From: Lachnospiraceae bacterium | GTDB lineage: Bacteria; Bacillota; Clostridia; Lachnospirales; Lachnospiraceae | Direction of reading: 5' to 3' | Assembly (NCBI GenBank): GCA_017521195.1 | Contig: JAFXGP010000029.1 | Coordinates: forward strand, 1 to 47,329 | DNA length: 47,329 nucleotides | Shown here: positions 27,154 through 47,329 of the stretch, one piece after another | Layout of the letters: each line of letters opens with the position of its first letter | How positions within the stretch are numbered: position 1 is the stretch's first letter | The notes under the pieces: generated by a model | Told to the model about the DNA's origin: nothing | What the model saw: the letters and a program-made list of their open reading frames with translations, nothing else | Database searches by the model: none | Translations under genes and position numbers: made by a program

Positions 27154-27858
27154 ATGAATACAGCATTAATATTAGCAGGTGGTACAGATCCCAGATTTAA
27201 GATGGATATACCCAAACAATTTGTAAATGTAAATAATCGACCTATTATTATCTATACTCTGGAAATATTTCAAAGCCATCCGGAAATAGATGAAATTATA
27301 GTTACATGCCTAGATGGATGGCAGGAATTTGTGAAGGTTTATGCCAAACAGTTTAATATAACAAAATTAAAAGAGATTATTCCTGGAGGAAAGGACGCGC
27401 AAGAGTCGACTTATCACGGACTACAGTTATTAAAAAGTAGAGCGGAGCAAGGGGATATTATTGTAATTCATGATGCAATTCGTCCTATGGTATCAGAAAA
27501 AAATATTAGTGACAGCATTGACATATGTAGAAAAAAGGGGATGGGTGTGGCAGCAACTTATATTATGGATACAATAATGCATTCTGGAAATGGAAAAGAA
27601 GGGTATCAGAGTCTTAATCGTTATGAAATTATGAAAGTTCAGACTCCGCAAGCCTTTGATTTCAGCCTAATTTGGCAAATGCATGAGAGAGCAATTCGGG
27701 AAAATTGTATGGGAGCCTGGGATAACAGCTCTTTAATTACAAGATTGGGAGAAAAAGTATACTTTTCCAAAGGTTCTGATTTGAATCTGAAAATTAATAG
27801 CATAGAAGATGTGGAAATGTTCAAGGCACTTTATAAGATGAAAGATGAGTTATCATAG
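27154..27858 (+). CDS. IspD/TarI-like cytidylyltransferase
   Basis: A 234-residue nucleotidyltransferase of the IspD/TarI group, which joins CTP to a phosphorylated sugar or polyol. The N-terminus ALILAGGTDPRFKMDIPKQF has Asp-Pro where the family usually has Gly-x-Arg-rich spacing (GGxGxR), a notable change in the nucleotide loop. The catalytic IVIHDAIRP and KVQTPQAF motifs are intact. In a surface-glycan cluster it more likely makes a CDP-sugar or CDP-polyol than the isoprenoid intermediate. It is the first gene of the locus. Confidence 0.8.
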   Translation: MNTALILAGGTDPRFKMDIPKQFVNVNNRPIIIYTLEIFQSHPEIDEIIVTCLDGWQEFVKVYAKQFNITKLKEIIPGGKDAQESTYHGLQLLKSRAEQGDIIVIHDAIRPMVSEKNISDSIDICRKKGMGVAATYIMDTIMHSGNGKEGYQSLNRYEIMKVQTPQAFDFSLIWQMHERAIRENCMGAWDNSSLITRLGEKVYFSKGSDLNLKINSIEDVEMFKALYKMKDELS

Positions 27859-27869
27859 GGAGACAGACG

Positions 27870-28181
27870 ATGAATATTGCTCTGATTCTGGCGGGAGGAA
27901 GCGGAAGCAGAACTGCACAGGATATACCAAAACAATTTATAAATATTTATGATAAACCTTTAATAATATATACATTGGAGAATTTCCAAAGATATCCCGA
28001 AATAGATGGAATTCTTGTGGTATGTATCGATGGTTGGCACGAAGTACTTCGCGTGTATGCAAAACAGTATAAAATTACCAAATTGAAATGGATTGTCAGT
28101 GGCAGTATGGATGGACAAGAATCTACTCAAAAAGGAGTGGAAGCGTTGTTGAAAATAGAAAGAGAAGAATGGATTAAATAG
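27870..28181 (+). pseudogene. Truncated twin of the IspD-like cytidylyltransferase
   Basis: A 103-residue frame closely matching the first 105 residues of the preceding gene (IPKQFINIYDKPLIIYTLEN against IPKQFVNVNNRPIIIYTLEI). It has the normal nucleotide loop LAGGSGSRTAQ but stops after QKGVEALLKIEREEWIK, just before the metal-binding HDAIRP. The missing two thirds is not found in other frames downstream. It was probably created by tandem duplication and deletion. A stable half-protein is conceivable but would lack catalytic residues. Confidence 0.7.
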
Positions 28182-28185
28182 AACA

Positions 28186-29589
28186 ATGAGAAAAAAGCAG
28201 AAACAGGAAATACTGGAGTTTGTTGCCAGTTTACAGGAAGCACATAAGAAAATAAAAGAGATACTGGAACAGGGAAACGTGACAGAAGGTCAGAATATGC
28301 TCTGTGATTGTCAGGAATGTGCCATTGAATTGGGGAATATTATTGAAACTTTTGAAGGGGAAGGGGCTGTTACTGTTTCTTATATTGAGAAGTATTGTGA
28401 GCTTTTATATCATTATTATGAAAAGTTAAATACGACAACAAAGACAGAGCTTTTAAGTAATAAAAAGATTTCAAAGAAGTTAATTGATACTCTTAATAAA
28501 CAGCTTTCCAATATGGAAAACAGCATTAAGAATGATATTAAAACAAAAAAAGAAATTGTATTCTTTCCATACAAAGCCTCTATGTGGGATTCTTTGGAAA
28601 GCGTGTATTTGGCCGCAAAAGAAGATGAAAATTGTGATGCTTATTGCGTACCTATTCCGTATTATGATAAAAATCCTGATGGCAGTCTGGGAAAAATGCA
28701 TTACGAAGGAAGGGAATATCCTGAAAATATTGAGGTTATAGACTGGAGAACCTATGATGTTAAAGAGCGAAAACCGGATGTGGTTTATATTCATAATCCG
28801 TATGATAATTGCAATATTGTAACTAGTGTACACCCGGATTATTATGCGGAGAAGCTAAAGCAATACACTGATAAACTGGTTTATATTCCTTATTTTGTGC
28901 TACAAGAGATTGAACCGGATAATCAGGAGGCAATTGATAATATACAGCATTTTATCTGGACACCGGGGGTAATTTATTCGGATCAGGTAATTGTTCAATC
29001 TGAAAAAATGCGACAAATCTACATTAACGAATATCTCAAGGCTGCCAAAAAGAACGGATGGATAGGAGTTCGTTTAGATAGGGCAAGCTTAGAAAAGAAA
29101 ATTCTTGGAACCGGTTCACCAAAGCTGGAAAAGGCGAAAAATAGCAAAAAAGAAGATTATGAGCTTCCGGAAGAATGGATTCGGATTATTCAGAAGCCGG
29201 ATGGAAGCTGGAAAAAGATTGTATTATATAACACAGGAGTTTCCGCACTATTGGGATATGGTGAAGAGTGGGTTGATAAAATAGAAAATACGCTGAAGGT
29301 ATTTCAGGAAGAACAAGATAAAATTGTATTGCTTTGGAGACCCCATCCACTGATAGAAAACACTATGAAAACCATGCGCCCGGAAACCTTGAAGAAATAT
29401 AGGAAGATAAAGGAAAGGTATGTGCAAGAAGGCTGGGGAATTTATGATGAATCCACGGATATGAATCGTGCAGTTGCTATTAGTGATGCCTATTATGGAG
29501 ACGGAAGTAGCATGGTGGAATTGTATCGAAGTCAGGAGAAACCGGTGATGATACAGAATCCTAAGATTTTAAATGCGATAGAAGAGTAG
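28186..29589 (+). CDS. CDP-glycerol glycerophosphotransferase-like protein
   Basis: A 467-residue protein. The first 125 residues are helical and coiled-coil-like. The C-terminal 330 residues form a two-lobed Rossmann-like fold with KEIVFFPYKASMWDSLESVY, VVYIHNPYDN, a central VLYNTGVSALLGY, VLLWRPHPL, and DAYYGDGSSMVELYRSQEKPV near the end. The HPL plus GDxSS pattern is that of CDP-glycerol glycerophosphotransferases and related teichoic-acid enzymes, consistent with the cytidylyltransferase upstream. It probably transfers a phospho-polyol or sugar phosphate onto a glycan at the inner membrane face. The substrate is uncertain. Confidence 0.65.
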   Translation: MRKKQKQEILEFVASLQEAHKKIKEILEQGNVTEGQNMLCDCQECAIELGNIIETFEGEGAVTVSYIEKYCELLYHYYEKLNTTTKTELLSNKKISKKLIDTLNKQLSNMENSIKNDIKTKKEIVFFPYKASMWDSLESVYLAAKEDENCDAYCVPIPYYDKNPDGSLGKMHYEGREYPENIEVIDWRTYDVKERKPDVVYIHNPYDNCNIVTSVHPDYYAEKLKQYTDKLVYIPYFVLQEIEPDNQEAIDNIQHFIWTPGVIYSDQVIVQSEKMRQIYINEYLKAAKKNGWIGVRLDRASLEKKILGTGSPKLEKAKNSKKEDYELPEEWIRIIQKPDGSWKKIVLYNTGVSALLGYGEEWVDKIENTLKVFQEEQDKIVLLWRPHPLIENTMKTMRPETLKKYRKIKERYVQEGWGIYDESTDMNRAVAISDAYYGDGSSMVELYRSQEKPVMIQNPKILNAIEE

Positions 29590-29602: not shown

Positions 29603-30184
29603 ATGCTGAAGAATGAATATGTGAAGGAACTGATTTCATTATTAGAAAGAACAGAAATTTGGATTAATCATAATCAAGAAGATATAGGTTATGATAAGGG
29701 AATAGAATATTTATTTGAAAAATTTTCTTATCATAAAAAACAAAATTCTCAGGTGTTTTTTATTGGAAATGGAGGAAGTTCCGCTATAGCCAGTCATATG
29801 ACAGCTGATTTTATGAAAAATGGAGGCATGAAAACTTATAGTCTGTATGATAATGCAGTTACTACATGTATGGGCAATGATTATGGTTATGAGTATGTGT
29901 TTTCCAAGCCGCTGGAATTTTTGGGAAATGAAAATGATTTGTTGGTGGCTATCAGTAGCTCGGGAAATTCTTTAAATATATGTAATGCCATTGAAGTTGC
30001 GAAGAACAAGAAAATGGGCGTCATTACACTTACAGGCTTTAGAAGCGATAATAAAGTGAAGCAATTGGGGAATGTGAACATATATATTCCTTCTGAAAAA
30101 TACGGATATGTAGAAAGTATTCATAATTTAATGCTACAACAAATTGTGGATATGATTTTGGAAAGAGATGGAGCTAGAATTTAG
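29603..30184 (+). CDS. gmhA: Phosphoheptose isomerase-like SIS protein
   Basis: A 193-residue SIS-domain protein with FFIGNGGSSAIASHMTADF, VAISSSGNSLNICNAIEVAK and IESIHNLM-like C-terminal residues (YVESIHNLMLQQIVD). This is the GmhA pattern, converting sedoheptulose 7-phosphate to D-glycero-D-manno-heptose 7-phosphate. It is the first step of heptose activation, and the later steps (gmhB, hldE) follow in the same operon. Its stop overlaps the GTG start of gmhB by one base. A related sugar-phosphate isomerase is the alternative. Confidence 0.85.
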   Translation: MLKNEYVKELISLLERTEIWINHNQEDIGYDKGIEYLFEKFSYHKKQNSQVFFIGNGGSSAIASHMTADFMKNGGMKTYSLYDNAVTTCMGNDYGYEYVFSKPLEFLGNENDLLVAISSSGNSLNICNAIEVAKNKKMGVITLTGFRSDNKVKQLGNVNIYIPSEKYGYVESIHNLMLQQIVDMILERDGARI

Positions 30185-30726
30185 TGAAAAAACCAGTAGT
30201 CTTTTTAGATAGAGATGGTGTTTTGACCGTAGAAAAAGGGTATATTTTACCTTTAGAAGAGGTAGAATGTTACCCATTCGTAAAAAAATGCATTGAAGAA
30301 ATTCATCAGAAAGGTTACTTAGCAATAGTGGTTACTAATCAGGGTGCAGTAGCAAGAGGTTATTTTACGGAAGAAAAGTTAATCTATTTGCATGAACAAA
30401 TAAAAAGAGAAATAAACGTTGATGCCATTTATTATTGTCCACATCATAAAGAAGGAAAAGTGGAGAAATATGCAGTAGATTGTAACTGTAGAAAGCCGAA
30501 GCTTGGGATGATTGAGCAGGCCTGTAACCAATTTGAAATTGATATGGAGAACTCCTATATGGTGGGAGACCGGGCAAGCGATATAGAGTTAGGAAAAAAT
30601 GCGGGAGTCAAAACAATATTAGTAGAAAGTGGCTACGGCAGTAAAAAGATGGAATATGATATTCAGGCAGATTTTACAGTGGAAGATTTAAGGGAAGCTG
30701 TGAAAATAATAGAAAATAGACAGTAG
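30184..30726 (+). CDS. gmhB: Heptose bisphosphate phosphatase-like HAD protein
   Basis: A 180-residue HAD-family phosphatase with motif I FLDRDGVLTVEKGYI, motif II VVTNQG, a zinc-binding loop YYCPHHKEG to DCNCRKPKLGMI, and motif IV MVGDRASDIELGKNAG. The zinc loop and size are specific for GmhB, which removes the 7-phosphate of heptose 1,7-bisphosphate. Translation starts at GTG 30184 within the gmhA stop (TAGTG), so production is coupled. Confidence 0.88.
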   Translation: MKKPVVFLDRDGVLTVEKGYILPLEEVECYPFVKKCIEEIHQKGYLAIVVTNQGAVARGYFTEEKLIYLHEQIKREINVDAIYYCPHHKEGKVEKYAVDCNCRKPKLGMIEQACNQFEIDMENSYMVGDRASDIELGKNAGVKTILVESGYGSKKMEYDIQADFTVEDLREAVKIIENRQ

Positions 30727-30744: not shown

Positions 30745-31731
30745 ATGATTTCATTGGTAACAGGTGGATGTGGATTTATAGGATCCCATATGGTAGACAG
30801 ATTATTAGCAGAAGGACATACAGTTCGTGTCATTGATAACTGGTCAACAGGTAGGCCAGCGAATCTGGAACATCAGAAAGATAATATGAATTTAACAGTA
30901 TATCACATGGATATTCGCAATAGGGAAGAAATAGAGCCCATTTTTCAGGGGGTAGATTATGTGTTTCATTTTGCAGCATTGGCAGATATTGTTCCGTCCA
31001 TTCAAAAACCGTGGGAATACTATTCTTCCAACGTACTTGGAACCTATAATGTAGTGGAATGTGCGAAGAATGCTAATATTAAAAAATTAGTATATGCGGC
31101 GTCTTCTTCCTGTTATGGGATTCCGGACGAATATCCAACAAAGGAAAGCGCAGAGATTCGTCCTCAGTATCCTTATGCATTAACCAAAAGATTAGGAGAA
31201 GAGACGGTTCTTCATTGGGGACAGGTGTATGGCTTACCGGTGGTAACTTTAAGATTATTTAATGTATATGGAACACGCTCCAGAACCAGCGGAACCTATG
31301 GTGCTGTATTTGGTGTATTTTTAGCACAAAAATTGGCAGGAAAGCCATTTACTGTAGTAGGAGATGGTAACCAGACCAGAGACTTTACTTATGTTACTGA
31401 TATTGCAGATGCATTTTATACAGCGGCGGTGTCAGATGTGGTACAGGAAACCTTTAATGTGGGAAGTGGAGGAACTTATTCTGTTAACCGTTTATGCGAG
31501 TTATTGGGCGGAGAAATTACTCATATTCCAAAACGTCCGGGGGAACCGGATTGTACCTTTGCAGATACCACAAAAATTCAGGAGCAGCTTGGTTGGAAAG
31601 CGAAGGTAACTTTTGAAGAAGGTGTACAGAAAGTATTAGACAATATTGATTATTGGCGTGAAGCTCCTGTGTGGACACCGGACAGTATTGGTGTGGCTAC
31701 GCAGGATTGGTTTAAATATTTAGGGAAATAG
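30745..31731 (+). CDS. NAD-dependent sugar epimerase/dehydratase (extended SDR)
   Basis: A 328-residue extended short-chain dehydrogenase: TGGCGFIGSHMVDRLL (cofactor-binding GxxGxxG), DNWSTG, the SSS-C-Y catalytic region (AASSSCYGIP), YPYALTKRLGEE with Tyr-x3-Lys, and the NVGSGGTYSV C-terminal segment. It resembles UDP-glucose/UDP-GlcNAc 4-epimerases more than typical HldD, but its place between gmhB and hldE makes a nucleotide-heptose epimerase possible. No transmembrane segments. Confidence 0.8.
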   Translation: MISLVTGGCGFIGSHMVDRLLAEGHTVRVIDNWSTGRPANLEHQKDNMNLTVYHMDIRNREEIEPIFQGVDYVFHFAALADIVPSIQKPWEYYSSNVLGTYNVVECAKNANIKKLVYAASSSCYGIPDEYPTKESAEIRPQYPYALTKRLGEETVLHWGQVYGLPVVTLRLFNVYGTRSRTSGTYGAVFGVFLAQKLAGKPFTVVGDGNQTRDFTYVTDIADAFYTAAVSDVVQETFNVGSGGTYSVNRLCELLGGEITHIPKRPGEPDCTFADTTKIQEQLGWKAKVTFEEGVQKVLDNIDYWREAPVWTPDSIGVATQDWFKYLGK

Positions 31732-31740
31732 GATGAAGGC

Positions 31741-33273
31741 ATGGCTGATATTATTTCAAAACAAGAGTTTAAAGAGAATATAAGACTATCCTTAAAGGCG
31801 GAGGGAAAGACCATTGCGTTGTGTCATGGTGTATTTGATTTAGTACACCCGGGACATATTATTCATTTGGAACAAGCAAAAGCAATGGCAGATGTTTTGG
31901 TGGTTTCTATTACTGCAGCCAAGTTCGTTAGAAAAGGTCCCGGAAGACCTTATTTTAATGATGAAATGAGGTTGAAGTTCTTATCTGCAATAGAATATAT
32001 CGATTATGTAATGATATCCGATGGACATACAGTAGATGATATTGTAGAAAGTGTGGAACCGGACATCTATGTAAAAGGTGAGGAATACGCCAAGGAAAGC
32101 GAAGATGTTACCGGAAAAATCCGTGAAGAGAGAGAATTGGTAGAGAAGCATGGCGGACAGATTCGTTATACGACGGGAGACGTGTTCAGTTCTACCAAGT
32201 TGATAAATACAGCTATGTCAGGTTTACCTGAGGATGTCATTCAATTCATGGAAGCTTTTAAACAAAAATATTCCATGAAGGATATCAAAGAAGCTACTGC
32301 AAAAATAGAAGATTTAAAAGTCTTAGTGGTTGGAGATGTTATTATTGACAAATACAGTTACTGTAATGTACAGGGACTTATGAGTAAGGATATGGGATAT
32401 TCCACCAGATTAAAATATTCAGAGGAATATTACGGAGGTTCTCTTGCAATTACAAGACACATTAGTAGCTTTTGCAACAATGTAACACTAATGTCTATTA
32501 TAGGAAATGAAAGGCATATCTTAGAAGATTTGCAGGATAATTTGCCGGACAACATCGAACTTCAGTTACATAGAAGTGAAGTATTTCCAACCATAGTAAA
32601 ACATCGATATTTAACAAAGAATACAAAAAGAGAAGAATATCGTAAAATATTTGCAGTGAATAATATTCCTTGTCAAATGGAATATGAAAAAGAAGTAAAA
32701 GAAAGCTTTCAAGAACAACTAAAGATTGTGTTAAAGGATTATGACGTAGTATTTTTGTGTGATTTTGGTCATGGTTTGATTGATGAAAAAACACAGCAAA
32801 TAATAGAAGAGAATGCAAAGTATTTGGTGTTGAACTGCCAGACAAATTCCACGAATCATGGGATGAATATTATTACAAAATATAATCGTGCCGATGCGTT
32901 CACTTTGGATCAAAAAGAATTGCAGTTAGCATATCCAATGTTCGTTTTTGATGAACATGAGGCGTTAAAAAGCTTAAGTGACAAGTTAGGTGGAAGTGGA
33001 TGGCTTACCAGAGGAGCCAAAGGTGCATTAGGAATTCAGAATCAAGAGATACAGGAATGTCCGGCATTTACTTTAACAGTGAAAGATACCATTGGAGCTG
33101 GGGACGCTTTTTTTGCAGTGGCTGGGTTATATGTTGCAAGCGGACAGAAAAATGATATGGGATTAGTTATGGGTAATATCGCAGGAGCTTTGGGAGCGAA
33201 TATTGTTGGAAATAAGGACAGGATAGAAAAGGTTAATGTGCTGAAGTATGCCAGTACGTTGATGAATGTATAG
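31741..33273 (+). CDS. hldE: HldE-like nucleotidyltransferase-kinase fusion, domains reversed
   Basis: A 510-residue bifunctional protein. Residues about 20-155 are a nucleotidyltransferase with GVFDLVHPGHIIHLEQAK (HxGH) and the KxxSSTKLI-type end (FSSTKLINT). Residues about 195-505 are a PfkB/RfaE sugar kinase with LKVLVVGDVIIDKY, YYGGSLAITRHI and the catalytic DTIGAGDAFFAV. Escherichia HldE has the kinase first and the transferase last, so the order here is reversed. Together the domains should phosphorylate heptose 7-phosphate at C1 and add a nucleotide. The nucleotide (ADP, CDP or GDP) cannot be read from sequence. Confidence 0.82.
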   Translation: MADIISKQEFKENIRLSLKAEGKTIALCHGVFDLVHPGHIIHLEQAKAMADVLVVSITAAKFVRKGPGRPYFNDEMRLKFLSAIEYIDYVMISDGHTVDDIVESVEPDIYVKGEEYAKESEDVTGKIREERELVEKHGGQIRYTTGDVFSSTKLINTAMSGLPEDVIQFMEAFKQKYSMKDIKEATAKIEDLKVLVVGDVIIDKYSYCNVQGLMSKDMGYSTRLKYSEEYYGGSLAITRHISSFCNNVTLMSIIGNERHILEDLQDNLPDNIELQLHRSEVFPTIVKHRYLTKNTKREEYRKIFAVNNIPCQMEYEKEVKESFQEQLKIVLKDYDVVFLCDFGHGLIDEKTQQIIEENAKYLVLNCQTNSTNHGMNIITKYNRADAFTLDQKELQLAYPMFVFDEHEALKSLSDKLGGSGWLTRGAKGALGIQNQEIQECPAFTLTVKDTIGAGDAFFAVAGLYVASGQKNDMGLVMGNIAGALGANIVGNKDRIEKVNVLKYASTLMNV

Positions 33274-33291: not shown

Positions 33292-34407
33292 TTGCGGAAG
33301 AACTTAGTTGGTTTAGTAAGTAGCAAGATAAATGCAATAGGTAATATGGCAGACAATATTAGAATGGATTCTCATAAGTTAATTTATCATCCGGAAACAG
33401 TGGGAAGATGGCTTAGGGGAGAGAATATATATCCGATAGAAATAGAGATTTCACCCAGTGGGTTATGTAATCACAGATGTGTTTTTTGTGCAGTGGATTA
33501 CATTGGCTATCAAGCAAATTTTTTAAATCAAGATGTTATTTTGAGAGATATACAGCAAATGAGTAAAAAGGGATTGAAAAGTGTAATCTGTTCAGGAGAG
33601 GGAGAACCTCTGTTAAATCCTAATATGCCGAATATCGCCAATGGAATTAAATCAACAGGTGTGGATGTAGCAATGAGTACAAATGGAGCACTATTTGATC
33701 ACGACAAGGCAAAAGCATGTTTAAGAGCTTTTACCTGGGTGCGATTTAGCGTGGCTAGCATGGAAGAGAGTTCCTATGATGAAATCCAGAGAGGAAAACG
33801 CGGAGATTTAGAGCGAGTAACGGAAAATATTAGTAACTGTGTTAAAGTCAAAAAAGATGGTAATTTAACTACTACTTTGGGGGTGCAATGTTTGTTGCTA
33901 CCAAACAATATGGAACAATTACCATATATGGCGAAATCATTAAAAGAAATAGGAGTAGATTATCTTACCATTAAGCCGTATTCTCAGCATTTACATAGTG
34001 AAAATAAGTTTGAAATAGATTACAGTCAACTTCTAGACTTAGAACGAAAAATAAAAGAATACGAAACAGCGGATTTTAAGATTTATTTTCGGGCTAATGC
34101 TATGAAGAAAATGCATCAGAGGAAATGCTATACGCAGTGCTATGGTTTGCCATTTATGACACATATTGATGCGAAAGGTAACGTATGGCCTTGCGTAGCC
34201 CATATTGGAACAGAAGAATTTTGTTACGGGAATATTAATGAGGATACTTTTGAGGAAATATGGGAAGGTAGTAGGCGACAGGAAGTCATTAATAAATTAA
34301 ATCAGTTAGATATTAATAAAGTATGTAGAGAAGCATGTAGACTGGATGAGATTAACAAGTATTTGAATGAGTTGAAGCATCCAGGGGAACATGTGAATTT
34401 TATTTAA
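33292..34407 (+). CDS. Radical SAM/SPASM enzyme 1
   Basis: A 371-residue radical SAM protein. The cluster motif CNHRCVFC (CxxxCxxC) follows IEIEISPSGL. GEGEPLL is the AdoMet-contacting GGE-like motif. A SPASM-like region near the C-terminus has CYTQCYG, WPCVAHIG and VCREAC, offering cysteines for extra iron-sulfur clusters. The protein ends HVNFI, a tail shared with the two other radical SAM proteins of the locus. SPASM dehydrogenases oxidise alcohols on sugars and cyclitols (BtrN) or modify peptides; with sugar genes on both sides a sugar substrate is likelier. TTG 33292, with AAAGGA upstream, is the assumed start. Confidence 0.8.
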   Translation: MRKNLVGLVSSKINAIGNMADNIRMDSHKLIYHPETVGRWLRGENIYPIEIEISPSGLCNHRCVFCAVDYIGYQANFLNQDVILRDIQQMSKKGLKSVICSGEGEPLLNPNMPNIANGIKSTGVDVAMSTNGALFDHDKAKACLRAFTWVRFSVASMEESSYDEIQRGKRGDLERVTENISNCVKVKKDGNLTTTLGVQCLLLPNNMEQLPYMAKSLKEIGVDYLTIKPYSQHLHSENKFEIDYSQLLDLERKIKEYETADFKIYFRANAMKKMHQRKCYTQCYGLPFMTHIDAKGNVWPCVAHIGTEEFCYGNINEDTFEEIWEGSRRQEVINKLNQLDINKVCREACRLDEINKYLNELKHPGEHVNFI

Positions 34408-35521: not shown

Positions 35522-35643
35522 TACTACTAGTACAAATATACCAGCATTCTTAATGTTGTAATATGTCTATTTTGAATATTGTTACGATATTTATGGTAAA
35601 AATATATTGAAAAGTTTTTGTAGTATAAATGGAGTTAGTTGTA

Positions 35644-37929: not shown

Positions 37930-38052
37930 TTGAAGGAATTATTGGAGAAAGTTAGTGCGAAAATTCCAATATGGGGTGCTGGAAAATTTGGTACATATGT
38001 TGGAGAAGAATTAAAAGGAAAATATAATGTATTATGTTATCCCAGTTGTTGA
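37930..38052 (+). pseudogene. Fragment of a small Rossmann module
   Basis: Forty codons reading LKELLEKVSAKIPIWGAGKF and on to a TGA at 38050-38052, with no start. The PIWGAGKFG pattern matches IYGDGYWG at 37600 and IIWGNGYYG at 44090. It overlaps the start of the next gene in another frame, so it is a relic of a longer gene cut during rearrangement. Confidence 0.6.
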
Positions 38053-39235: not shown

Positions 39236-40306
39236 ATGAATAGATTGAGCGAAAATAAATTAAAATATCACGTTGATAGGTTATTAGATATTAAAGAAAA
39301 AGGAGAAACTTATCCGGTACATATAACAATAGGATTGACGGAATATTGTTGCCATAAGTGTGTTTTTTGTCATTCGGAGTTTGCTACATCAGACACCACA
39401 AGAAATGCAACTATGCAACGAGAGCAATTGATAAGCTTTTTAAAAGAAGCTTATGAGTGCGGAGTAAAGTCAGTGACACTAGTTGGAAGCGGAGAACCTT
39501 TATTACATCCGGAAATTGAGGAAATACTTAGAGATATAAAAAATATTGGTTTAGAAATTGGTATTTTTACAAATGGTTCGAAGGCAAAAGGAACGCTTTT
39601 AAATACAATTATAGATACTTGTACTTTTGTACGATTTTCAATTAATGCAGGAGACTCAAAGGAGCATGAAAAAGTTCATGGTGTAGTGGGTGATTTTGAG
39701 AACATTGTGTCAAATGTGTCAGAGATGGTGAAAAAAAAGAAAGAAAAAAATTTAAAATTTCCAACGATAGGAACTCAAATGGTGTTTTATGAGGGGAATT
39801 ATCGTTCAATGGTTAAAGCTGCAAAAATGTGGGGGGAGATTGGTGTAGATTATTTTGAGATTAAGCCGGTTATAGCAGGTGAAGGTAATCAGGTAGATAA
39901 AACTGTTTTTCCGGCAAAAGATAAAGAAGAAGTTCATAAACTAATGGATGAAGCAAAGCAATACGAAACAAACACATATAATGTGTATACGAAATATAAT
40001 CAGTATATTGTAACTCAAGATACAAATAATCGCCAATATACAAAATGTTATGGATCATTATTAGACATGAATTTGTGGGCAGATGGCAATATTTTTGTTT
40101 GCGCAAATCTAGAACATGAGAGATATATTATAGGCAATATCTATAAAAATACTTTCAAAGAGATATGGAATGGGGAACAGAAGAAAAAAATAAGACAAAG
40201 TATTAATTTAAAAGCTTGTCCTAAAGGATGTAGATGTCATTTTATGAATGAATATATATGGGACTATTTGCATCCAGATAAGGAGATTCATCCGAATTTT
40301 GTATAA
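39236..40306 (+). CDS. Radical SAM/SPASM enzyme 2
   Basis: A 356-residue radical SAM protein with CCHKCVFC (CxxxCxxC), VGSGEPLLHPE in the GGE position, and a C-terminal SPASM-like set: CYGSLLDM, FVCANLEH and CPKGCRCHFM. The tail is IHPNFV, akin to HVNFI in its two relatives. The opening (KLKYHVDRLLDIKEKGETYP) matches that of enzyme 3 (ELKIFHHIDRIEGLLEGERV), showing a common subfamily. Likely role: redox or carbon-centred modification of a sugar intermediate. Confidence 0.8.
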   Translation: MNRLSENKLKYHVDRLLDIKEKGETYPVHITIGLTEYCCHKCVFCHSEFATSDTTRNATMQREQLISFLKEAYECGVKSVTLVGSGEPLLHPEIEEILRDIKNIGLEIGIFTNGSKAKGTLLNTIIDTCTFVRFSINAGDSKEHEKVHGVVGDFENIVSNVSEMVKKKKEKNLKFPTIGTQMVFYEGNYRSMVKAAKMWGEIGVDYFEIKPVIAGEGNQVDKTVFPAKDKEEVHKLMDEAKQYETNTYNVYTKYNQYIVTQDTNNRQYTKCYGSLLDMNLWADGNIFVCANLEHERYIIGNIYKNTFKEIWNGEQKKKIRQSINLKACPKGCRCHFMNEYIWDYLHPDKEIHPNFV

Positions 40307-40364: not shown

Positions 40365-41432
40365 ATGAAAGACTATTCAGGATATAGCGAACTAAAAATA
40401 TTCCATCATATAGATCGAATAGAAGGATTACTGGAGGGTGAGCGTGTAGCTCCGATTTATGTAAGAATTAAACCAACAAATGTATGTAATCAGCGATGTT
40501 ACTATTGTGGTTATGCTGATAACAATGTGATAGAAGATCGAAATGTAGATAATAGGGAGTCGATTGATTGGGGACTATTGAAAAACACACTTTATGAGTT
40601 ACATGAAATGGGAACAAAAGCAGTCACTTTTAGTGGAGGGGGAGATCCTCTTTGTTACAGTTCAATAAAAGAAACACTTTCATTAGTTGCCGAATTAGGA
40701 TTTGATTATTCTTTGATTACAAATGGTCAAGCATTAAAGGATGACAAGATTGAATTATTGAAAGGTGCAAAGTGGGTAAGAGTATCGCTGGATGCGTCAA
40801 ATGCAAATACATATAAAAGAATAAGGAATGTAGATTCTTATAGCCAAGTTATCAGAAATATAGAATCTTTTGCAGAGAAGAAAAATCAGGATTGCACGTT
40901 AGGTATTAACTGTGTGATTAGTAAAGAAAATCATAAAGAAATATATGATATATGTAGGCTTGTTAAAGAAATTGGAGTGGATAATATCAAGCTATCGCCA
41001 GTGATTGAAAAAAAGAACAACGAAGAATATCATCAAGAAATTAGCTTTTCTGTACAGGAGCAATTGCAGAGGGCAATTGATAATCTGGAAACAGATAAGT
41101 TTAAAATTGTAGATGGATATACAAATAATATTAGTTCCATAAAAACGTATTGTCGACCATACAAAAGGTGTTTAATACAAGAATTTTTTGCTGTAATTGG
41201 AGCGGATGCAAAAGTATATAGATGTCATGAAACTGCTTACAGAAAACAAGGAATATTAGGAGATCTTAATAAGGAAAGTTTTCGTCAAATTTGGTATAAA
41301 CCAGAAACTATAGAATCAATAAAAAAATATGATGTAAATGAAAATTGTACACATAAGTGTGCTTTTAACAATAGGAATATTATATTAAATAGTTTTCTTA
41401 ATATAGATAAGAATCATGTTAACTTTATATGA
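40365..41432 (+). CDS. Radical SAM/SPASM enzyme 3
   Basis: A 355-residue radical SAM protein: IRIKPTNVCNQRCYYCGYAD region with CxxxCxxC, TFSGGGDPLCY as the AdoMet GGE-like motif, and SPASM-like cysteines at CRPYKRCL, YRCHETAY and CTHKCAFNN. It ends NHVNFI. An AGGAGG-like GGGAGG precedes ATG 40365. The C-terminus is followed after 19 bases by the transketolase start. Substrate unknown; three related enzymes in one sugar locus suggest successive or alternative steps on one scaffold. Confidence 0.8.
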   Translation: MKDYSGYSELKIFHHIDRIEGLLEGERVAPIYVRIKPTNVCNQRCYYCGYADNNVIEDRNVDNRESIDWGLLKNTLYELHEMGTKAVTFSGGGDPLCYSSIKETLSLVAELGFDYSLITNGQALKDDKIELLKGAKWVRVSLDASNANTYKRIRNVDSYSQVIRNIESFAEKKNQDCTLGINCVISKENHKEIYDICRLVKEIGVDNIKLSPVIEKKNNEEYHQEISFSVQEQLQRAIDNLETDKFKIVDGYTNNISSIKTYCRPYKRCLIQEFFAVIGADAKVYRCHETAYRKQGILGDLNKESFRQIWYKPETIESIKKYDVNENCTHKCAFNNRNIILNSFLNIDKNHVNFI

Positions 41433-41451
41433 TTTATATGAAAGGTCAGCA

Positions 41452-42258
41452 ATGGAAAGTATAGAAAATAAAATCAAACAGATTAGATATAGGATGGCAA
41501 AAATAGCATATGAAACCAAAAGAGGACATCTAAGTTCAGCTTACTCATCATTAGAAATAATTTTTGCTTTATATTATATGAAAGTGATGAGGTATAAGGT
41601 TGATGACCTTGATTGGAATGAGCGTGATAGATTTATTTTAAGTAAAGGTCATGCAGGATTGGCATTGTATTGTGTGTTGCAAGATGTAGGAGTGTTGGAT
41701 ATAAATGCATTAAATAATTTTGCAGGGAAAATGTCAGATTTTTCTACGCATCCAGTAAGTAATATAAAGTATGGTATAGAAATGTCAGCAGGTTCCTTGG
41801 GACACGGAATGGCATTTGCTATAGGTCATGCATATAATGCGATTTTAGAAAATAAAGATTATAGAGTTTATGTATTATTGGGTGATGGAGAATTACAGGA
41901 AGGAAGTAATTGGGAAGCCTTTTTATTGGTCAGTGCTTTAAAGTTGAATAACATTACTGTGATAATCGATTATAATAATAGGCAAATTGCAGGTAAAGTT
42001 GATAATATTGTACCATTGGGAGATTTGTCAAAAAAAATGGAAAGTTTTGGCTTTGAAACATATGAAGTAGATGGTCATGATGTGAGTGCATTGGAGTGTA
42101 TTCTAAAAAAGAAAGATAAGAAACCAATAGCGGTAGTGGCACATACCACAAAAGGAAAAGGATTGTCATTTATGGAAGATTTGGATAATTGGCATGGAAG
42201 AGGTTTAACGGAGGAAGAATGGAGTAAGGCAAAACAAGAATTGGGTAATGGTGAATAA
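41452..42258 (+). CDS. Transketolase N-terminal (ThDP pyrophosphate-binding) subunit
   Basis: A 268-residue half-transketolase with KRGHLSSAYSSLEIIFALYY, LSKGHAGLALYCVL, GSLGHGMAFAIGHA and the ThDP-magnesium motif GDGELQEGSNWEA ending in an Asn (IIDYNN). It must pair with the next gene product to make an active two-subunit enzyme that moves two-carbon units between keto and aldo sugars. Such split forms in biosynthetic loci feed specialised pathways rather than the pentose cycle. ATG 41452 is used; the in-frame ATG at 41416 lies within the previous gene. Confidence 0.9.
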   Translation: MESIENKIKQIRYRMAKIAYETKRGHLSSAYSSLEIIFALYYMKVMRYKVDDLDWNERDRFILSKGHAGLALYCVLQDVGVLDINALNNFAGKMSDFSTHPVSNIKYGIEMSAGSLGHGMAFAIGHAYNAILENKDYRVYVLLGDGELQEGSNWEAFLLVSALKLNNITVIIDYNNRQIAGKVDNIVPLGDLSKKMESFGFETYEVDGHDVSALECILKKKDKKPIAVVAHTTKGKGLSFMEDLDNWHGRGLTEEEWSKAKQELGNGE

Positions 42259-42260: not shown

Positions 42261-43178
42261 ATGATAAATACATTTGAAAAAGCATTTAGTGAATTATTTA
42301 AAGATAACGAAAATATTGTATTAATTGTACCGGACGATGATAAATTGTATTCATCAAGTAGGCGATATGTGAATGTGGGGATAGCTGAATGTAATGCAAT
42401 AGGGATGGCAGCAGGGTTAGCTAGTTGTGGTAAGATTCCCTTTGTCAAAGGTGGGGGAAGTTTTCTGGCACATCGAAGTAATGAATTTATCAGAGATGAC
42501 GTATCGATGCAAAATCGAAATGTAAAAATTATTGCAACCGGAGCAGGGATTGCTATCAATGCATTAGGAAATACACAACATATGACTGAGGATATGTCTT
42601 CTTTACGAGCTATGCCTAATATGGTTATTGTAACTCCTGCTACACCTACTGAAGTTGCATTGGCTGTTCCGAAGATTGCGGAAATAAATAAACCGGTATA
42701 TATGCGTATTGGTCGACACGAGGGAATAGATGTTTATGACCATAATAATTTAACGTTTGAAATTGGGAAAGGTCAGATGATAAAAGAAGGATGGGATGTT
42801 ACAATAATTACGACAGGAACCATTTTATCGGATGTTTTACAAGTTATACCAAGATTAGAAGAGAATAATATACATGTAGAAGTTATAAATATGCATACGA
42901 TTAAACCTATAGACGAAGATATGATTATCCAATCAGGGGAAAAAACAGGAAAGATTTTAACAATAGAGGAACATTCGGTGATAGGGGGATTAAAAAGTGC
43001 AGTTGCAGAAGTACTTGCCGATAGAGGAAGTGCTGTTAAATTGTATGGTATGGGATTACAAGATTGTTTTGCTAAAGGATATGGAACATACAAGGAAATT
43101 AAAGAAACAAATGGTCTAGGACAGGAAGATATATATGAAACAGTGAAAAATATAGTCAATAAAGTAGAAGAGTTTTAG
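42261..43178 (+). CDS. Transketolase C-terminal (pyrimidine-binding) subunit
   Basis: A 305-residue partner of the preceding subunit. NVGIAECNAIGMAAGLA has the conserved Glu that activates ThDP, GGGSFLAHRSNEFIRDD and GNTQHMTEDMSSLRAMPNM line the active site, and the C-terminal domain (VTIITTGTILSDVL, TIEEHSVIGGLKSAV) is standard. It starts two bases after the first subunit's stop, so 1:1 synthesis is expected. Deoxyxylulose 5-phosphate synthase is excluded by length and split. Confidence 0.9.
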   Translation: MINTFEKAFSELFKDNENIVLIVPDDDKLYSSSRRYVNVGIAECNAIGMAAGLASCGKIPFVKGGGSFLAHRSNEFIRDDVSMQNRNVKIIATGAGIAINALGNTQHMTEDMSSLRAMPNMVIVTPATPTEVALAVPKIAEINKPVYMRIGRHEGIDVYDHNNLTFEIGKGQMIKEGWDVTIITTGTILSDVLQVIPRLEENNIHVEVINMHTIKPIDEDMIIQSGEKTGKILTIEEHSVIGGLKSAVAEVLADRGSAVKLYGMGLQDCFAKGYGTYKEIKETNGLGQEDIYETVKNIVNKVEEF

Positions 43179-43194: not shown

Positions 43195-44067
43195 TTGAAA
43201 ATATTGGTAACAGGAGCAGGAGGAGTTGTTGGTAGTTATCTAGCGAGAGAATTAGCAAGAGAACATAACGTAGTCGGCACTATTCATAATACAATTCCCA
43301 AAGGTGTAGAAATAATTGATAAGTTATGGAAAATAGACTTGTCCATGGATATGTTACCGGAACAAACATTTGACGTCATTATTCATGTGGCAGCATTATT
43401 ATATGGTAATACGGAAGATCTAGTTAGAAATAATATTACGGCAACACAAAGGCTTATTGATTATGCGCTAAGAACGAAAACAAAAAGATTTATATATATT
43501 TCTACAGTATCGGTGTATGGTCAAGTAGAGGGAGAACTAGAAGAAAGTACACAAAAAAAATGCGACGAATCGTATGGATTAACAAAACTCATAGCTGAAA
43601 ATCTTGTAGTTGAATCAAATATAGAAGAGAAACTTATTATACGATTGCCCAGAATGTTGAGCGAAGATATGAAGCTGGATATTGAACATTCGGGAATGTG
43701 TAAAATGATTAAACAACTTTTAGATGATGCGGATGTAGTATGTGATATACCATTTGAATTATATAACAATTATATGCACGTTAGTCAATTACATAAGTTT
43801 GTTGAGAGACAATTATATAGAAAGAATTGGGAGAAGATGTGTGAGACAGTTAACCTAGGAGCAACTCAAAATATTACCATGTACGAGATATTAGATGCTT
43901 TAAAAAAAGGAATGGATAGTAATGCTAAGATATTAACAAAAGCAAAAACAGAAAGAACAATGTGTGCAAGAGTCAATGTTAAGAAAGCGGTACAGATGGG
44001 GTTAGAGGTAATAGATGAGGTAGCAATGTTAGAGAGATTTGCTGAAAATCTTACAAAGAGGAGATAG
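43195..44067 (+). CDS. NAD-dependent epimerase/dehydratase family protein (SDR)
   Basis: A 290-residue extended SDR: KILVTGAGGVVGSYLARELA (GxxGxxG cofactor loop), DVIIHVAALLYG, IYISTVSVYGQ and a Tyr-x3-Lys pair in CDESYGLTKLIAE. It is shorter than dTDP-glucose dehydratases and nearer to reductases/epimerases that finish nucleotide-sugar synthesis. The start is TTG 43195 with AAAGAGG upstream. Its neighbours are transketolase and a glycosyltransferase-like gene, so it may reduce the transketolase product. Confidence 0.78.
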   Translation: MKILVTGAGGVVGSYLARELAREHNVVGTIHNTIPKGVEIIDKLWKIDLSMDMLPEQTFDVIIHVAALLYGNTEDLVRNNITATQRLIDYALRTKTKRFIYISTVSVYGQVEGELEESTQKKCDESYGLTKLIAENLVVESNIEEKLIIRLPRMLSEDMKLDIEHSGMCKMIKQLLDDADVVCDIPFELYNNYMHVSQLHKFVERQLYRKNWEKMCETVNLGATQNITMYEILDALKKGMDSNAKILTKAKTERTMCARVNVKKAVQMGLEVIDEVAMLERFAENLTKRR

Positions 44068-44073: not shown

Positions 44074-45999
44074 ATGAAACAGATTATTATATGGGGGAAT
44101 GGTTATTATGGAAGGCAGTGTTTGCAGTATATTAACCAAAATGTTTGTGAAGTTAAAGGTATCATAGAAACGCACCCCCAAAATAGTATGTATAATGGAA
44201 TAGAAATAAGTTCACCAACGATATTAAATACAATAGAGTATGATTATTTAATTATAGCGAATTCTTATGTAGAAGAAATAAAAGAACTTCTAGAAAAATT
44301 GAACAAAAATGATAATAGAATCGTTGTGTGGATAGATATGATAAAAAATCCATTTTTGCATAGAAACATTTTATTAAAAATTGTAAGAGACGATTTTTGG
44401 TTAAACTACTCTCCCTACATTTTAAAAGAGGATGAAGAACAGGAGAAAGTGAACGATTTTAAATATTCACATAACAAAGTAATTTATATTATCGATTTAC
44501 GGATTAACGAGAAGAATATTATTATTAGCAGATTGTTTGAATTATTGATTCAATGTAAAAAAGATAAAACAAAATCTTTAATATTTATACCGAATGAAAA
44601 TCTTATGGATGAAGAATGGTACCATAATATGTTATATGAGCTCGGAAAAGAATATATGATTTTATGGGAAGACAGAAGAAAACAATTTCAATACATAATC
44701 CAAGCGTATGCTCAAATATTTGATTATCAGTATATATCATATTTAATAGGTGAAACACAGATAAATCGGCTTTATAAAGCGAGCAAATATTTTAAGATAA
44801 ATACTAATTTTGATTTTTGCGAAGTTGAAGATGAAATTATGGAAGCAGAAAGTCTAACTATTTTTAGCTTATATGCATCTAGAGTTGGAGAAACAATTAT
44901 TAGAATTATGTATTTGATTGATAGAGGGTTAGCATGTGATAATTCAATTTTATTGATTCCGGAAGAATATGGCGGAACACTGTCTCATGGAACAAATGCA
45001 GTGTTAATGGAATTAATAAACAGGAAATTTCGAATGGTTCGTAATGTATCGGAAATACATTATTGGATACGTTTAATAATCAATTATAAAAACGATATTG
45101 AGATAAATAAAGAGATTAACTATCAGGATAAATTATTTAAAATGGGAGATTGCAAAAAACAACGCCATATCGATTTTCGAGAATGTGAATTACAGCAGGG
45201 GAAAAAATTGTTATATGAGCAGTTTCCTGTAGAAGAAAAAAAGTATATTTGTGTTCTTTTGCGAGACAAACTCTATTTGGACAAAACTTTACCTAATGGC
45301 GGAGATGCGAGCAATAACATCAGAAATATGCCTACGAATATATTAAATAAAGCAGTGGAGTATATATCAAGTGAAGGTATGAAAACAGTTAGGATTGGTC
45401 AAGCAATAGAAGACAATTTAGATTTACCGGGTTATATAGAGCATTGTCAAAAAGGATATGATGAATTTGTTGATATTATGCTTCATAGGCAGTGTAAATT
45501 TACTTTTGGCAATTTGTCTGGAGGGATGCTTTTATCAACATTTATGGGAACACCGGTTGCATTATTATCAGACATGTATCCATTTTTGATGCCTTTATCA
45601 GGATATAAAACAACTGATTTGATAATGTTTCGAAAAATGAAAGAGTATGCAACAGGACGAGTACTTACTTTTAAAGAAAATTTGACGTACTATTGTAAAT
45701 TCCAAATAGAAGGGGTCTACCATCTCGGATATTTTAAAAAGCAAGGTATTGAATTAATTCCTTTTACAGAAGAAGAAGTTTATGGATTAGTGTATGAAAT
45801 GAATTGCAGACTGGATGGGGTGTGGAGGCAAAATGCAGAGGATGATGAATTAGTAGAGAAATTTGAACGCATGGTTTTTGAAGTAAGTGCATCTATGGGT
45901 ATAGATTTATCTCGGTACCCTCAGCCCAAAATATCTACGACATTTCTAAAAATGAATAAGAACTTAATGAGTGAAAGTAACCAAATAAGTTTAATTTAA
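44074..45999 (+). CDS. TIGR04372-like glycosyltransferase with Rossmann head
   Basis: A 641-residue two-part protein. The first 85 residues are a small Rossmann module (QIIIWGNGYYGRQCLQYI) shared with the C-terminus of the methyltransferase at 36702-37844. The remainder, especially the last 260 residues (KKYICVLLRDKLYLDKTLP, DASNNIRNMPTN, KTVRIGQAIEDN, FTFGNLSGGMLLSTFMGTPV), resembles the TIGR04372 family of putative glycosyltransferases, which have a GT-B-like second half. It probably transfers the finished sugar. No membrane helix is visible. The family name is from memory and the reaction is unproven. Confidence 0.6.
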   Translation: MKQIIIWGNGYYGRQCLQYINQNVCEVKGIIETHPQNSMYNGIEISSPTILNTIEYDYLIIANSYVEEIKELLEKLNKNDNRIVVWIDMIKNPFLHRNILLKIVRDDFWLNYSPYILKEDEEQEKVNDFKYSHNKVIYIIDLRINEKNIIISRLFELLIQCKKDKTKSLIFIPNENLMDEEWYHNMLYELGKEYMILWEDRRKQFQYIIQAYAQIFDYQYISYLIGETQINRLYKASKYFKINTNFDFCEVEDEIMEAESLTIFSLYASRVGETIIRIMYLIDRGLACDNSILLIPEEYGGTLSHGTNAVLMELINRKFRMVRNVSEIHYWIRLIINYKNDIEINKEINYQDKLFKMGDCKKQRHIDFRECELQQGKKLLYEQFPVEEKKYICVLLRDKLYLDKTLPNGGDASNNIRNMPTNILNKAVEYISSEGMKTVRIGQAIEDNLDLPGYIEHCQKGYDEFVDIMLHRQCKFTFGNLSGGMLLSTFMGTPVALLSDMYPFLMPLSGYKTTDLIMFRKMKEYATGRVLTFKENLTYYCKFQIEGVYHLGYFKKQGIELIPFTEEEVYGLVYEMNCRLDGVWRQNAEDDELVEKFERMVFEVSASMGIDLSRYPQPKISTTFLKMNKNLMSESNQISLI

Positions 46000-46077
46000 A
46001 AATGGGGCGGGTATTTGTAGAAAATCTGTAAGCATTTATAAAATGTAGAATAATTTTTGCGAAAGGAAAGTTGTACT

Positions 46078-47130
46078 ATGCAAGAAAACTATATTCATTC
46101 AATGAGTGGTTGTCACCTTGATAGAGAAAAAGCCTGGTTCATTGATGGAAATATGAATTATTTAATAAGCGAGGATATGGTTACTCATTCTATTCAATTT
46201 GTAAAGAAAGTATTTAAAAAATATAATTCAAAGAGAAGGTTATATTGTGGTGTTGTAAAAAAAAATGAAAAGATATATTTGTTTCCAAATGGTGCAGAAA
46301 AAATGTTGGTATATAACACAGAGACAGCAGAAACAACTGAGATAGATGTTGATTTTCAATCTAATACACATAATAAATCCGGCAATTCCTATTTTGGATG
46401 GCAAGAGGGCAATGAATTATATTATTTTCGTAGGGGCTACAAATCATTATATTGCATGGATACAACTAATATGGCTTTCTTTACAATAGACTGTAATAAG
46501 AATAGTAGTTTAGATGACGAGTGGGCATGTTATTGGAATTGGCGAACAGAAAAATATAAAGATAAAGTGCTTTTATACAGTTTAATTGATAAATGTTTTT
46601 TTATTTACGACCAAGAGAATAAAAAACTAATAAGTACTATGCAACATAGCGAAACCGTTGACGACTATACTGTATGGGGTGAAAAGATTGTATTCATAAA
46701 TAAAAAGTATGAATTGTGGATTTATGATGGTACTGTATGTAACATGATAGCAGATTTAATGAAATATGGTTATCAAAAAAATAATGGTTTATCATTGTAT
46801 GTTAAAGATAATCAGTTGTATTTAATTGATAGAAAAACAGGTAGTGTTGGAAAAGTAGATTTAGAGGCAGAATTCTCAATGGAGAAAGTGAGAGAAGGAA
46901 ATAGTGACAATGAGATTGTTACTATTGCAATTCGTCAGAGCAATGGATTTGTGCAAAGAAAAGATGGTACATTATATTGTTATAATGGCACCAATCATTT
47001 TCAAGGAATAGTTCAAAGTAATATGGAGAATATTCCGGAAGAGGTCTACAAATTTGATATGATAACAGAATGTTCAGAGTATACTATTAAAGATTTATTT
47101 AAATGTGTAACTTTGGATAAAGCAGAATAA
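46078..47130 (+). CDS. Beta-propeller-like protein of unknown function
   Basis: A 350-residue protein built of repeated short strands with aromatic ends ([95 protein letters not shown]). About six such blades suggest a beta-propeller, often a carbohydrate- or protein-binding scaffold. There is no signal peptide, so it should be cytoplasmic. ATG 46078 follows GAAAGGAAAG. Similar propeller proteins accompany surface-glycan loci, but no function is known. Confidence 0.5.
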
Positions 47131-47185
47131 GAGTTGTGTGGGGATTTTATGTGCTGCACCATCAAGAGATAGGAAAGTAGAAATA

Positions 47186-47329
47186 ATGAAAATTTTAATC
47201 ACAGGCGCAGATGGATTTATTGGAAGTCACTTAACAGAAGAACTAGTAAAAAAAGGATATGAAGTAAAAGCATTTGTTTATTACAATTCCTTTAATACAT
47301 GGGGATGGTTAGATACTTTACCTGCGGAA
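47186..47329 (+). CDS. LegB-like nucleotide-sugar 4,6-dehydratase, start only
   Basis: Forty-eight codons are in the window, still open at the edge. [20 protein letters not shown] gives the extended-SDR cofactor loop, and [13 protein letters not shown] is the segment typical of LegB-type dehydratases that act on UDP- or GDP-amino sugars early in legionaminic acid synthesis. AGGAAAG lies before ATG 47186. If correct, legionaminic-type genes should lie just past the window. Confidence 0.75.

Follow-up and report, generated by a model that had tools for sequence, protein, structure and literature searches.

The 47,329-nucleotide stretch of Lachnospiraceae DNA analysed here (the window, which is contig JAFXGP010000029.1 of a 2.54 Mb assembly, GCA_017521195.1, with 133 contigs and 82% completeness) contains a run of 19 genes, all on the + strand between 27154 and 47130, delimited as open reading frames (ORFs) and annotated with Pfam and NCBIfam. 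The original prediction had described this run as one co-directional locus with heptose activation genes, radical S-adenosylmethionine (SAM) proteins, aminotransferases and a two-subunit transketolase, and all the genes it listed are indeed present on the single strand. We propose, at roughly even odds (probability about 0.5), that the product of the locus is an unusual nucleotide-activated sugar destined for a surface glycan: a nucleoside diphosphate (NDP)-heptose that would be oxidised by the first radical SAM enzyme (RS1) and then aminated and/or branched with a two-carbon (C2) unit. The genes concerned, which include short-chain dehydrogenases/reductases (SDRs), an aminotransferase dependent on pyridoxal phosphate (PLP) and the two transketolase subunits (TKN and TKC) that bind thiamine pyrophosphate (TPP), are as follows.

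29603..30184, + strand: GmhA-like SIS protein, resembling phosphoheptose isomerase (PF13580)
30184..30726, + strand: GmhB-like HAD phosphatase (NF006506 158.4 bits, cut-off 178; TIGR01656 117 bits, cut-off 84)
30745..31731, + strand: SDR1, a GalE-like extended SDR with the epimerase-type motif SSSCYG...YALTK
31741..33273, + strand: HldE-like fusion in inverted order, nucleotidyltransferase (28-155) and then PfkB sugar kinase (193-460)
33346..34407, + strand: RS1, Twitch-type radical SAM protein (PF04055 and PF13186; the frame opens at 33292, the probable start is the ATG at 33346)
34418..35521, + strand: DegT-family aminotransferase, DegT1 (PF01041 297.5 bits, cut-off 19.8; PLP lysine motif SFHAIK)
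35629..36360, + strand: WbqC-like protein (PF08889 210 bits)
36681..37844, + strand: class I methyltransferase, weakly CmcI-like (PF13578 34.5 bits; PF04989 21.4 bits, below the cut-off of 23.2)
39236..40306, + strand: radical SAM 2 (RS2), Twitch-type, with C271, C289, C328 and C332 (group of 6, C328 in 83%)
40365..41432, + strand: radical SAM 3 (RS3), Twitch-type (Cys set kept in 15/15 of the RS3 group)
41416..42258, + strand: transketolase N subunit with the TPP domain (PF00456 124 bits; cofactor His/Asp motifs intact)
42261..43178, + strand: transketolase C subunit with an altered substrate site (H461 to G, D469 to L, H473 to Q)
43195..44067, + strand: SDR2, NDP-sugar reductase/epimerase-like (PF01370 80 bits)
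44074..45999, + strand: glycosyltransferase of the TIGR04372 family (118 bits, cut-off 45)

Parts of the gene set recur far outside the family. A plasmid search with RS3 returned 50 records, all below 60% identity, and pointed to islands in Solidesulfovibrio and Azospirillum; homologues of the fusion lie on plasmids of Azospirillum oryzae (35% identity) and Solidesulfovibrio carbinolicus (33%), over 97% of the length, in islands that also carry SIS, SDR, radical SAM and two-subunit TPP genes. Scanning a genome collection with a three-sequence fusion alignment gave at least 588 pattern matches and at least 542 confirmed relatives, the best 80 of which (L009-L088) form the locus set used below; 48 of these loci have at least 8 kb on both sides. 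Because the loci are not independent, some being mutually close kin, the Fisher values given here are descriptive only. By record titles, mostly those of metagenome bins, the 80 loci come from Lachnospiraceae, Selenomonas, cyanobacteria, Verrucomicrobia, Elusimicrobia, Omnitrophota, Chlamydiae, alpha- and gammaproteobacteria, Pelagibacteraceae and two archaeal bins, among others; the archaeal cases are L074 and L079, labelled Pacearchaeota and Nanoarchaeota, with the origin of the contigs given by label only. Closer to home the inverted fusion is rare, occurring in 3 of 200 genomes of the same family and in 2 of 299 genomes of a phylum sample, the window's own genome counted each time.

Around the fusion, an SDR1 homologue (at least 380 bits) is found in 50/80 loci (64/80 for the wider similarity cluster), the GmhA-like isomerase in 56, GmhB in 22, DegT in 30, the radical SAM cluster in 36 (RS1, at least 280 bits, in 24), a second SDR group in 36 and a TPP-enzyme pair in 45, which is transketolase-type in 28 loci and dehydrogenase-E1-type (E1-type) in 17; among the 48 loci with long flanks, 32 have one or the other pair. 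As controls we used 40 DegT-centred loci from 40 other genomes of the same family (750 kb in total), hand-picked among high-scoring DegT matches, one per genome and away from contig starts, six of them 10.6-16.5 kb and the remainder about 19-20 kb long. None of these 40 contained a transketolase pair, a GmhA-like gene, the fusion, RS1 or an SDR1 homologue of at least 400 bits (E1 pairs were not looked for); they yielded a single WbqC and a single radical SAM match, weak at 53 bits. In the 20 fusion loci with Bacillota titles, the transketolase pair occurs in 11 (Fisher 5e-7), GmhA in 17, RS1 in 16 and SDR1 in 19. Independent swapping of these genes, which the original prediction had named as fatal to its single-pathway idea, is thus not what the loci show: fusion, SDR, isomerase, RS1 and TPP pair keep company across phyla. 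Other groups seen in the 80 loci are a B12-binding radical SAM protein (14 loci), a class I methyltransferase (29 loci) and an APH-type kinase (12 loci, 10 of them with the transketolase-type pair).

Two pairs of components exclude each other. Transketolase-type and E1-type pairs (28 and 17 loci) never share a locus (0/80, p 3e-4), and neither do RS1 and the second SDR group (24 and 36 loci; 0/80, p 1e-8), so that in each case two kinds of enzyme seem to be alternatives at a single step, giving two slots. A TPP pair accompanies RS1 in 18 of 24 loci, against 27 of the 56 loci that lack RS1 (p 0.03). We considered whether the E1 pairs are ordinary parts of dehydrogenase complexes and rejected this, since no lipoyl or E2 domain is among the 25 commonest of the 85 Pfam families in their surroundings (95 neighbouring ORFs with matches, out of 100 selected).

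The genes at the head of the module resemble those of the adenosine diphosphate (ADP)-L-glycero-D-manno-heptose pathway (GmhA, HldE, GmhB, HldD) in that an isomerase, a kinase/nucleotidyltransferase fusion, a 7-phosphatase and an SDR are adjacent, and differ from it in several respects. The isomerase scores 103.8 bits against the curated GmhA model (TIGR00441), below the cut-off of 209, although the 13 best of its 16 matched solved chains are phosphoheptose isomerases. It has Asp at the position of the Glu of 1tk9, and the residue after GNGGS, a Glu in GmhA that we take to be catalytic, is Asp in 53 of the 56 linked isomerases, Glu in one and Arg in one, with the motif not found in one. The phosphatase likewise falls short of the GmhB model while passing the broader TIGR01656. 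The fusion reaches 146 bits against the HldE model NF008454 (cut-off 521), and its domain order is inverted, as residues 4-158 align to positions 322-471 of the 475 in that profile; the "HldE-like fusion" that had been claimed is therefore a genuine kinase/nucleotidyltransferase fusion with its halves exchanged. Both active-site motifs, HGVFDLVHPGH and GAGD, are intact; in the PDB, the nucleotidyltransferase half best matches cytidylyltransferases, and the nearest solved relative of the kinase half is a heptose 7-phosphate kinase. Heptose activation, as originally predicted, is consequently likely but unproven, with all three curated cut-offs missed. SDR1 scores higher against GalE than against heptose-epimerase models, and radical SAM and TPP enzymes follow, unlike in the ADP-heptose pathway. 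NDP-sugar 4,6-dehydratases have an Asp-Glu catalytic motif. We rejected such a role for SDR1, whose SSSCYG motif does not fit, and Asp-Glu is absent from all SDR1 and second-SDR motifs that were read (the motif was unread in 6 of 50 and 3 of 38 sequences, respectively).

All three radical SAM proteins match the Pfam SPASM family, and SPASM enzymes is what they had been called. SPASM is a seven-Cys, two-cluster domain and Twitch its one-cluster form (PMC6231123, in excerpt). In the RS1 group, seven Cys are invariant in 27/27 sequences, the window included: those of CxxxCxxC plus C283, C301, C345 and C349. With four C-terminal Cys only, this is a one-cluster Twitch domain and not a seven-Cys SPASM domain, and the earlier label has to be replaced. 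The shared HVNFI/HPNFV-type tail, on the other hand, was correctly recognised: an NFI end is found in all 27 RS1-group sequences, and H367, N369, F370 and I371 are invariant in an alignment of 25. AlphaFold2, given 25 sequences, produced a confident RS1 model, with a predicted local distance difference test score of 86.5 and a predicted template modelling score of 0.85. RS1 orthologues occur in Bacillota families, Omnitrophota, Elusimicrobiales, Nitrosomonadaceae, Methylococcaceae, Gammaproteobacteria, a bin titled Nanoarchaeota and the Solidesulfovibrio plasmid. Only two PDB chains matched RS1, both of the sugar enzyme DesII (28 bits); BtrN, to which the enzymes had been compared, was not among them. 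The auxiliary cluster of BtrN is fully ligated by four Cys and has been suggested to oxidise the radical intermediate (PMC6231123, in excerpt). RS1 shares with this Twitch dehydrogenase four conserved Cys, enough to ligate a single auxiliary cluster fully. BtrN itself acts in butirosin synthesis.

The transketolase departs from its relatives in its substrate site. A split transketolase had been counted among the unusual features of the locus, a view we abandoned: the housekeeping transketolase of the family is split as well, nearly all of the matches listed lying in frames of about 305-365 amino acids. The window's N subunit has the TPP-binding motifs GHLS, KGHA, THP, GDGE and WHG. The substrate residues of transketolase are His461, Asp469, Arg520, Ser384, Arg357, His28 and His263, with His473 touching TPP (PMC4601599, in excerpt). 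We aligned 27 linked C subunits, one from L097 and the others from 26 of the 28 loci with the pair; neither the residue counts nor the tree includes the short C subunits of L046 and L080 or a 121-amino-acid piece from the window's own genome, at the edge of contig C119. H461 and D469 are lost in 27/27 of these relatives (replaced by G in 25 and S in 2, and by L in 24, M in 2 and N in 1, respectively), whereas 17/17 housekeeping split transketolases, taken as the next-best matches of the family search, keep H461, D469 and H473. Position 520 is R in the housekeeping enzymes and in the window, but mostly K or T in the linked copies. The split transketolase of Carboxydothermus (PDB 6yaj) and those checked in Lachnospiraceae share with the window enzyme the two subunits, clear homology and the TPP motifs, but they retain H461 and D469. 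The linked copies and the window form one clade (28 sequences, support 0.999).

Members of this clade also occur apart from the fusion. When 299 genomes of the phylum were searched with a profile of the linked C subunits and twelve high-scoring regions were fetched, the top ranks went to a Selenomonas genome (G228, region L156) and to the window's own genome. Two further regions, L157 and L160, have the glycine-type site and no fusion, and there is no fusion match in either genome; they encode instead a glucose-1-phosphate cytidylyltransferase (448 and 396 bits, cut-off 300) and a cytidine diphosphate (CDP)-glucose 4,6-dehydratase (507 and 367 bits, cut-off 278), with RfbH in L157 (741 bits, cut-off 423). 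The other nine regions yield ten C subunits: nine with H461 intact, and four of those with GEDG too. Of the records matched in plasmid searches (229 with the L157 C subunit, 100 in a further search) we examined nine, in addition to the Solidesulfovibrio plasmid. The two top-ranked of the 229, from Methylovirgula and Paenibacillus cellulosilyticus, carry RfbF and RfbG by annotation: in Methylovirgula the order is RfbF-RfbG-SDR-RfbH-TKN-TKC, and in Paenibacillus a 635-amino-acid ORF beside RfbF/RfbG (L168, 7097-9004) fuses an SDR (18-241, 23 bits to SDR1) to a transketolase N subunit (375-630, 162 bits). A 59-sequence tree places L157, L160, Methylovirgula, Paenibacillus and the window in one 34-member clade (support 0.95), and no heptose genes were found in the fetched stretches of these four RfbF/RfbG loci. 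Matches on Fusobacterium and Enterococcus plasmids are canonical transketolases. The glycan island of the Solidesulfovibrio carbinolicus plasmid pDCAR1 (L004) contains two split transketolases, at 6252-7184 and 16350-17288 (a canonical copy and a member of the glycan clade), as well as PseB/PseC and an MptE-like protein, which is presumably Maf-like.

Two known systems provide precedents for C2 branching. In the yersiniose route, the substrate of YerE comes from RfbF, RfbG and RfbH, while in avilamycin synthesis AviB1/AviB2 are E1-like. The C-4 acetyl branch of yersiniose is put in place by the TPP-dependent flavoprotein YerE; for that of avilamycin, a complex of AviB1 and AviB2 using pyruvate has been proposed (PMC4753412, in excerpt). 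The window resembles the first system in that a TPP enzyme would add a C2 branch and that four relatives of the window enzyme adjoin RfbF and RfbG, two of these also RfbH; it differs in that YerE is a single flavoprotein, whereas the window enzyme is of the two-subunit transketolase type and the sugar heptose-type. It resembles AviB1/AviB2 and Pau11/Pau12 (avilamycin and paulomycin) in the two-protein complex and in the E1-type pairs that take the same slot in 17/80 loci; there, however, the sugar is an octose in an antibiotic and the enzyme E1-type rather than transketolase-type. Both the presence of the clade in RfbF/RfbG operons and the exchange of transketolase and E1 pairs in fusion loci agree with transfer of a C2 unit onto a nucleotide-linked keto-sugar.

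Our reading of these patterns, in which substrate, reactions, their order and polymer are all inferred, is as follows. The GmhA-like isomerase, the inverted HldE-like fusion and the GmhB-like phosphatase would convert a ketose phosphate, most likely sedoheptulose 7-phosphate, to an NDP-heptose, which SDR1 may epimerise. RS1, with its one auxiliary cluster, would then abstract a hydrogen to give a ketone, although its role could be either oxidation or epimerisation. DegT would aminate the ketone, with WbqC and the methyltransferase decorating the product, and/or TKN and TKC would add a two-carbon glycolyl branch to it, yielding a branched nine-carbon sugar. Additional oxidation or reduction steps may fall to RS2, RS3 and SDR2, and transfer of the product would be the task of the TIGR04372 protein. 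The window's own genome has six flagellin-domain matches, which make flagellin a possible acceptor; a capsule is possible likewise.

Several observations weigh against this reading. Twitch/SPASM chemistry is varied and function hard to predict from sequence networks (PMC6231123, in excerpt). No TPP pair lies in the fetched stretch of 35/80 loci, nor in 20 kb of the fusion locus of genome G094. The window C subunit has Q at H473, a residue that 27/27 linked relatives keep. Four split transketolases from the plasmid set, which make up a sister clade, three of them beside FGGY sugar kinases in catabolic loci and one an unannotated Streptomyces copy, have S and L at the two sites, for which reason we do not take the loss of H461 and D469 as proof of a nucleotide-sugar acceptor. 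The missed GmhA, GmhB and HldE cut-offs, together with Asp for Glu, mean that the sugar may be no heptose. Finally, DegT and the TPP pair are unassociated over the 80 loci (both in 17, odds ratio 1.03, p 1.0), so that, neither attracting nor avoiding each other, they may belong to an amino sugar and a branched sugar as two products. The higher-carbon or branched amino sugar of one pathway that had been predicted therefore gains from the transketolase clade and the CDP-sugar neighbourhoods in its branched or higher-carbon part, but not as one product both aminated and branched.

This last point leads to the strongest competitor, to which we give a real chance, roughly one in three: two parallel pathways on one island that serve the same glycan, RS1-DegT-WbqC making an amino sugar and RS2/RS3-transketolase-SDR2 a branched one, from the same or a different NDP-sugar. 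Besides the lack of association, it is favoured by what follows RS1: DegT comes directly after it in 3/24 loci and a TPP-enzyme gene is among the next three genes in 15/24 (these include L018, where it is on the opposite strand, and L063, where no more than the C/beta subunit is recognised), never both. In the other six RS1 loci, the transketolase pair lies farther along (L014), the contig ends (L017), an E1 pair is on the opposite side (L079) or RS1 is followed by SDR1-GmhA-fusion (L060, L065, L076). The heptose-type genes and RS1 are nevertheless common to both kinds of locus, and an RS3 relative stands immediately after RS1 in 7/24 RS1 loci, with the transketolase pair next in 5 of those 7, which argues against the separation; the window itself combines RS1-DegT and RS3-transketolase.

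Rather unlikely, in our estimate, is that the module activates another ketose phosphate (e.g. an octulose or a pentulose), in which case the names GmhA and HldE would mislead and the product would not be a heptose. The missed cut-offs, the Asp of the linked isomerases and the resemblance of the nucleotidyltransferase half to cytidylyltransferases all point that way, but the nearest solved relatives of the isomerase and the kinase half act on heptoses, and the GmhA-, GmhB- and HldE-like trio as a whole resembles the heptose route.

We think it improbable that the transketolase merely supplies sedoheptulose 7-phosphate locally to GmhA, as its co-occurrence with GmhA-like genes, its preserved TPP-binding motifs and the catabolic enzymes lacking the same two residues might suggest. 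Contig C119 of the window's own genome encodes another N subunit, with a higher PF00456 score than the window copy, and related genomes have canonical split transketolases; moreover, the substrate residues are lost throughout the window's clade, an E1-type pair, not expected to make this ketose phosphate, stands in its place in 17 loci, and clade members in CDP-glucose loci have no heptose genes in the fetched stretch.

That the radical SAM proteins are maturases of ribosomally synthesised and post-translationally modified peptides, placed in a glycan island by chance, we consider very improbable, although precursor peptides were not searched for. In favour of it, many of the NCBIfam matches of these proteins are to maturase-type models, all those listed falling far below cut-off; against it, RS1 orthologues recur with the fusion in many groups and on the Solidesulfovibrio plasmid yet in none of the 40 control loci, and the solved chains matched are solely those of the sugar enzyme DesII.

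Beyond the window, we tentatively extend the C2-branching version of our proposal, with slightly less than even confidence, to a phylum-spanning pathway to branched nine-carbon NDP-sugars, in which, after heptose activation by the inverted HldE fusion, the ketone would come from a Twitch-type radical SAM enzyme or, in its stead, an SDR, and a pair of the transketolase clade or of E1 type would join C2 directly onto the NDP-sugar. Elsewhere, that transketolase clade would branch CDP-4-keto-deoxyhexoses.

The remaining genes of the run are the following.

27154..27858, + strand: IspD-like cytidylyltransferase, between the IspD and ribitol-5-phosphate cytidylyltransferase models (PF01128 128 bits; TIGR00453 162.6 bits, below the cut-off of 181.3)
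27870..28181, + strand: second IspD-like gene, truncated to 103 amino acids, N-terminal half only (PF01128 positions 2-90 of 221)
28186..29589, + strand: no family match (no significant Pfam, NCBIfam or PDB match; ahead of GmhA in 7/80 related loci)
38027..39202, + strand: divergent DegT-fold protein (a two-sequence profile with its relative in L021 reaches DegT proteins, E 2e-8)
46057..47130, + strand: last gene of the window, no family match (no Pfam or NCBIfam matches)

The first three lie ahead of GmhA and are a correction to the original gene list. The gene after the truncated IspD-like frame begins 4 bp on, and at the corresponding place the relative L017 has two longer IspD-like genes, of 250 and 236 amino acids. 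Homologues of the protein preceding GmhA (366-573 bits) occur in L011, L012, L014, L015 and L017-L019; reading by eye suggests that it is possibly a glycerophosphotransferase-like glycan transferase, and a PDB search with it gave chance-level matches only. Of the two DegT genes that had been counted, 34418-35521 is unambiguous, whereas for 38027-39202 neither Pfam nor the PDB nor BLASTP gives a significant match: alone it reaches 12.4 bits against PF01041 (E 0.09, below the cut-off of 19.8), the PDB search returned chance-level matches only, and its remote membership is seen solely through the profile built from itself and one close relative. For the methyltransferase, the CmcI label is weak.

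Gaps within the run are -17 to +58 bp, apart from 107 bp upstream of WbqC, 320 bp upstream of the methyltransferase and 182 bp upstream of the second DegT-like gene. The final stop codon lies 199 bp short of the end of the window, which is also the end of the contig, so the locus may be incomplete. At the start of the run (about 24600-27000), GC content drops from about 0.38 to 0.29, staying at 0.29-0.38 throughout; an Rpn-family nuclease/transposase gene (24684-25574, - strand) lies close to this border, and the genes upstream include those for pyruvate kinase and DNA polymerase III delta'. The run therefore looks like an acquired island. A repeat search at the border found a single inverted pair of AT-rich 20-mers, and a tRNA scan found none.

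Among 5.39 million open PubMed Central papers, which leave subscription papers uncovered, we found no relevant paper on this gene combination, judged by title. The individual kinds of enzyme are already known, but as far as the open literature searched goes, neither the module, nor the inverted fusion that marks it, nor the transketolase clade seems to have been described. The clade members beside CDP-glucose genes offer a simple first test case, since their presumed keto-sugar substrate is obtainable with known enzymes. If the proposal is true, groups now annotated as "transketolase", "PfkB family carbohydrate kinase" and "radical SAM protein" would become a defined, testable route to branched sugars in the surface glycans of bacteria as far apart as gut Lachnospiraceae and cyanobacteria, and transketolase-type enzymes, best known in central metabolism, would represent a second solution for placing carbon branches on nucleotide sugars.

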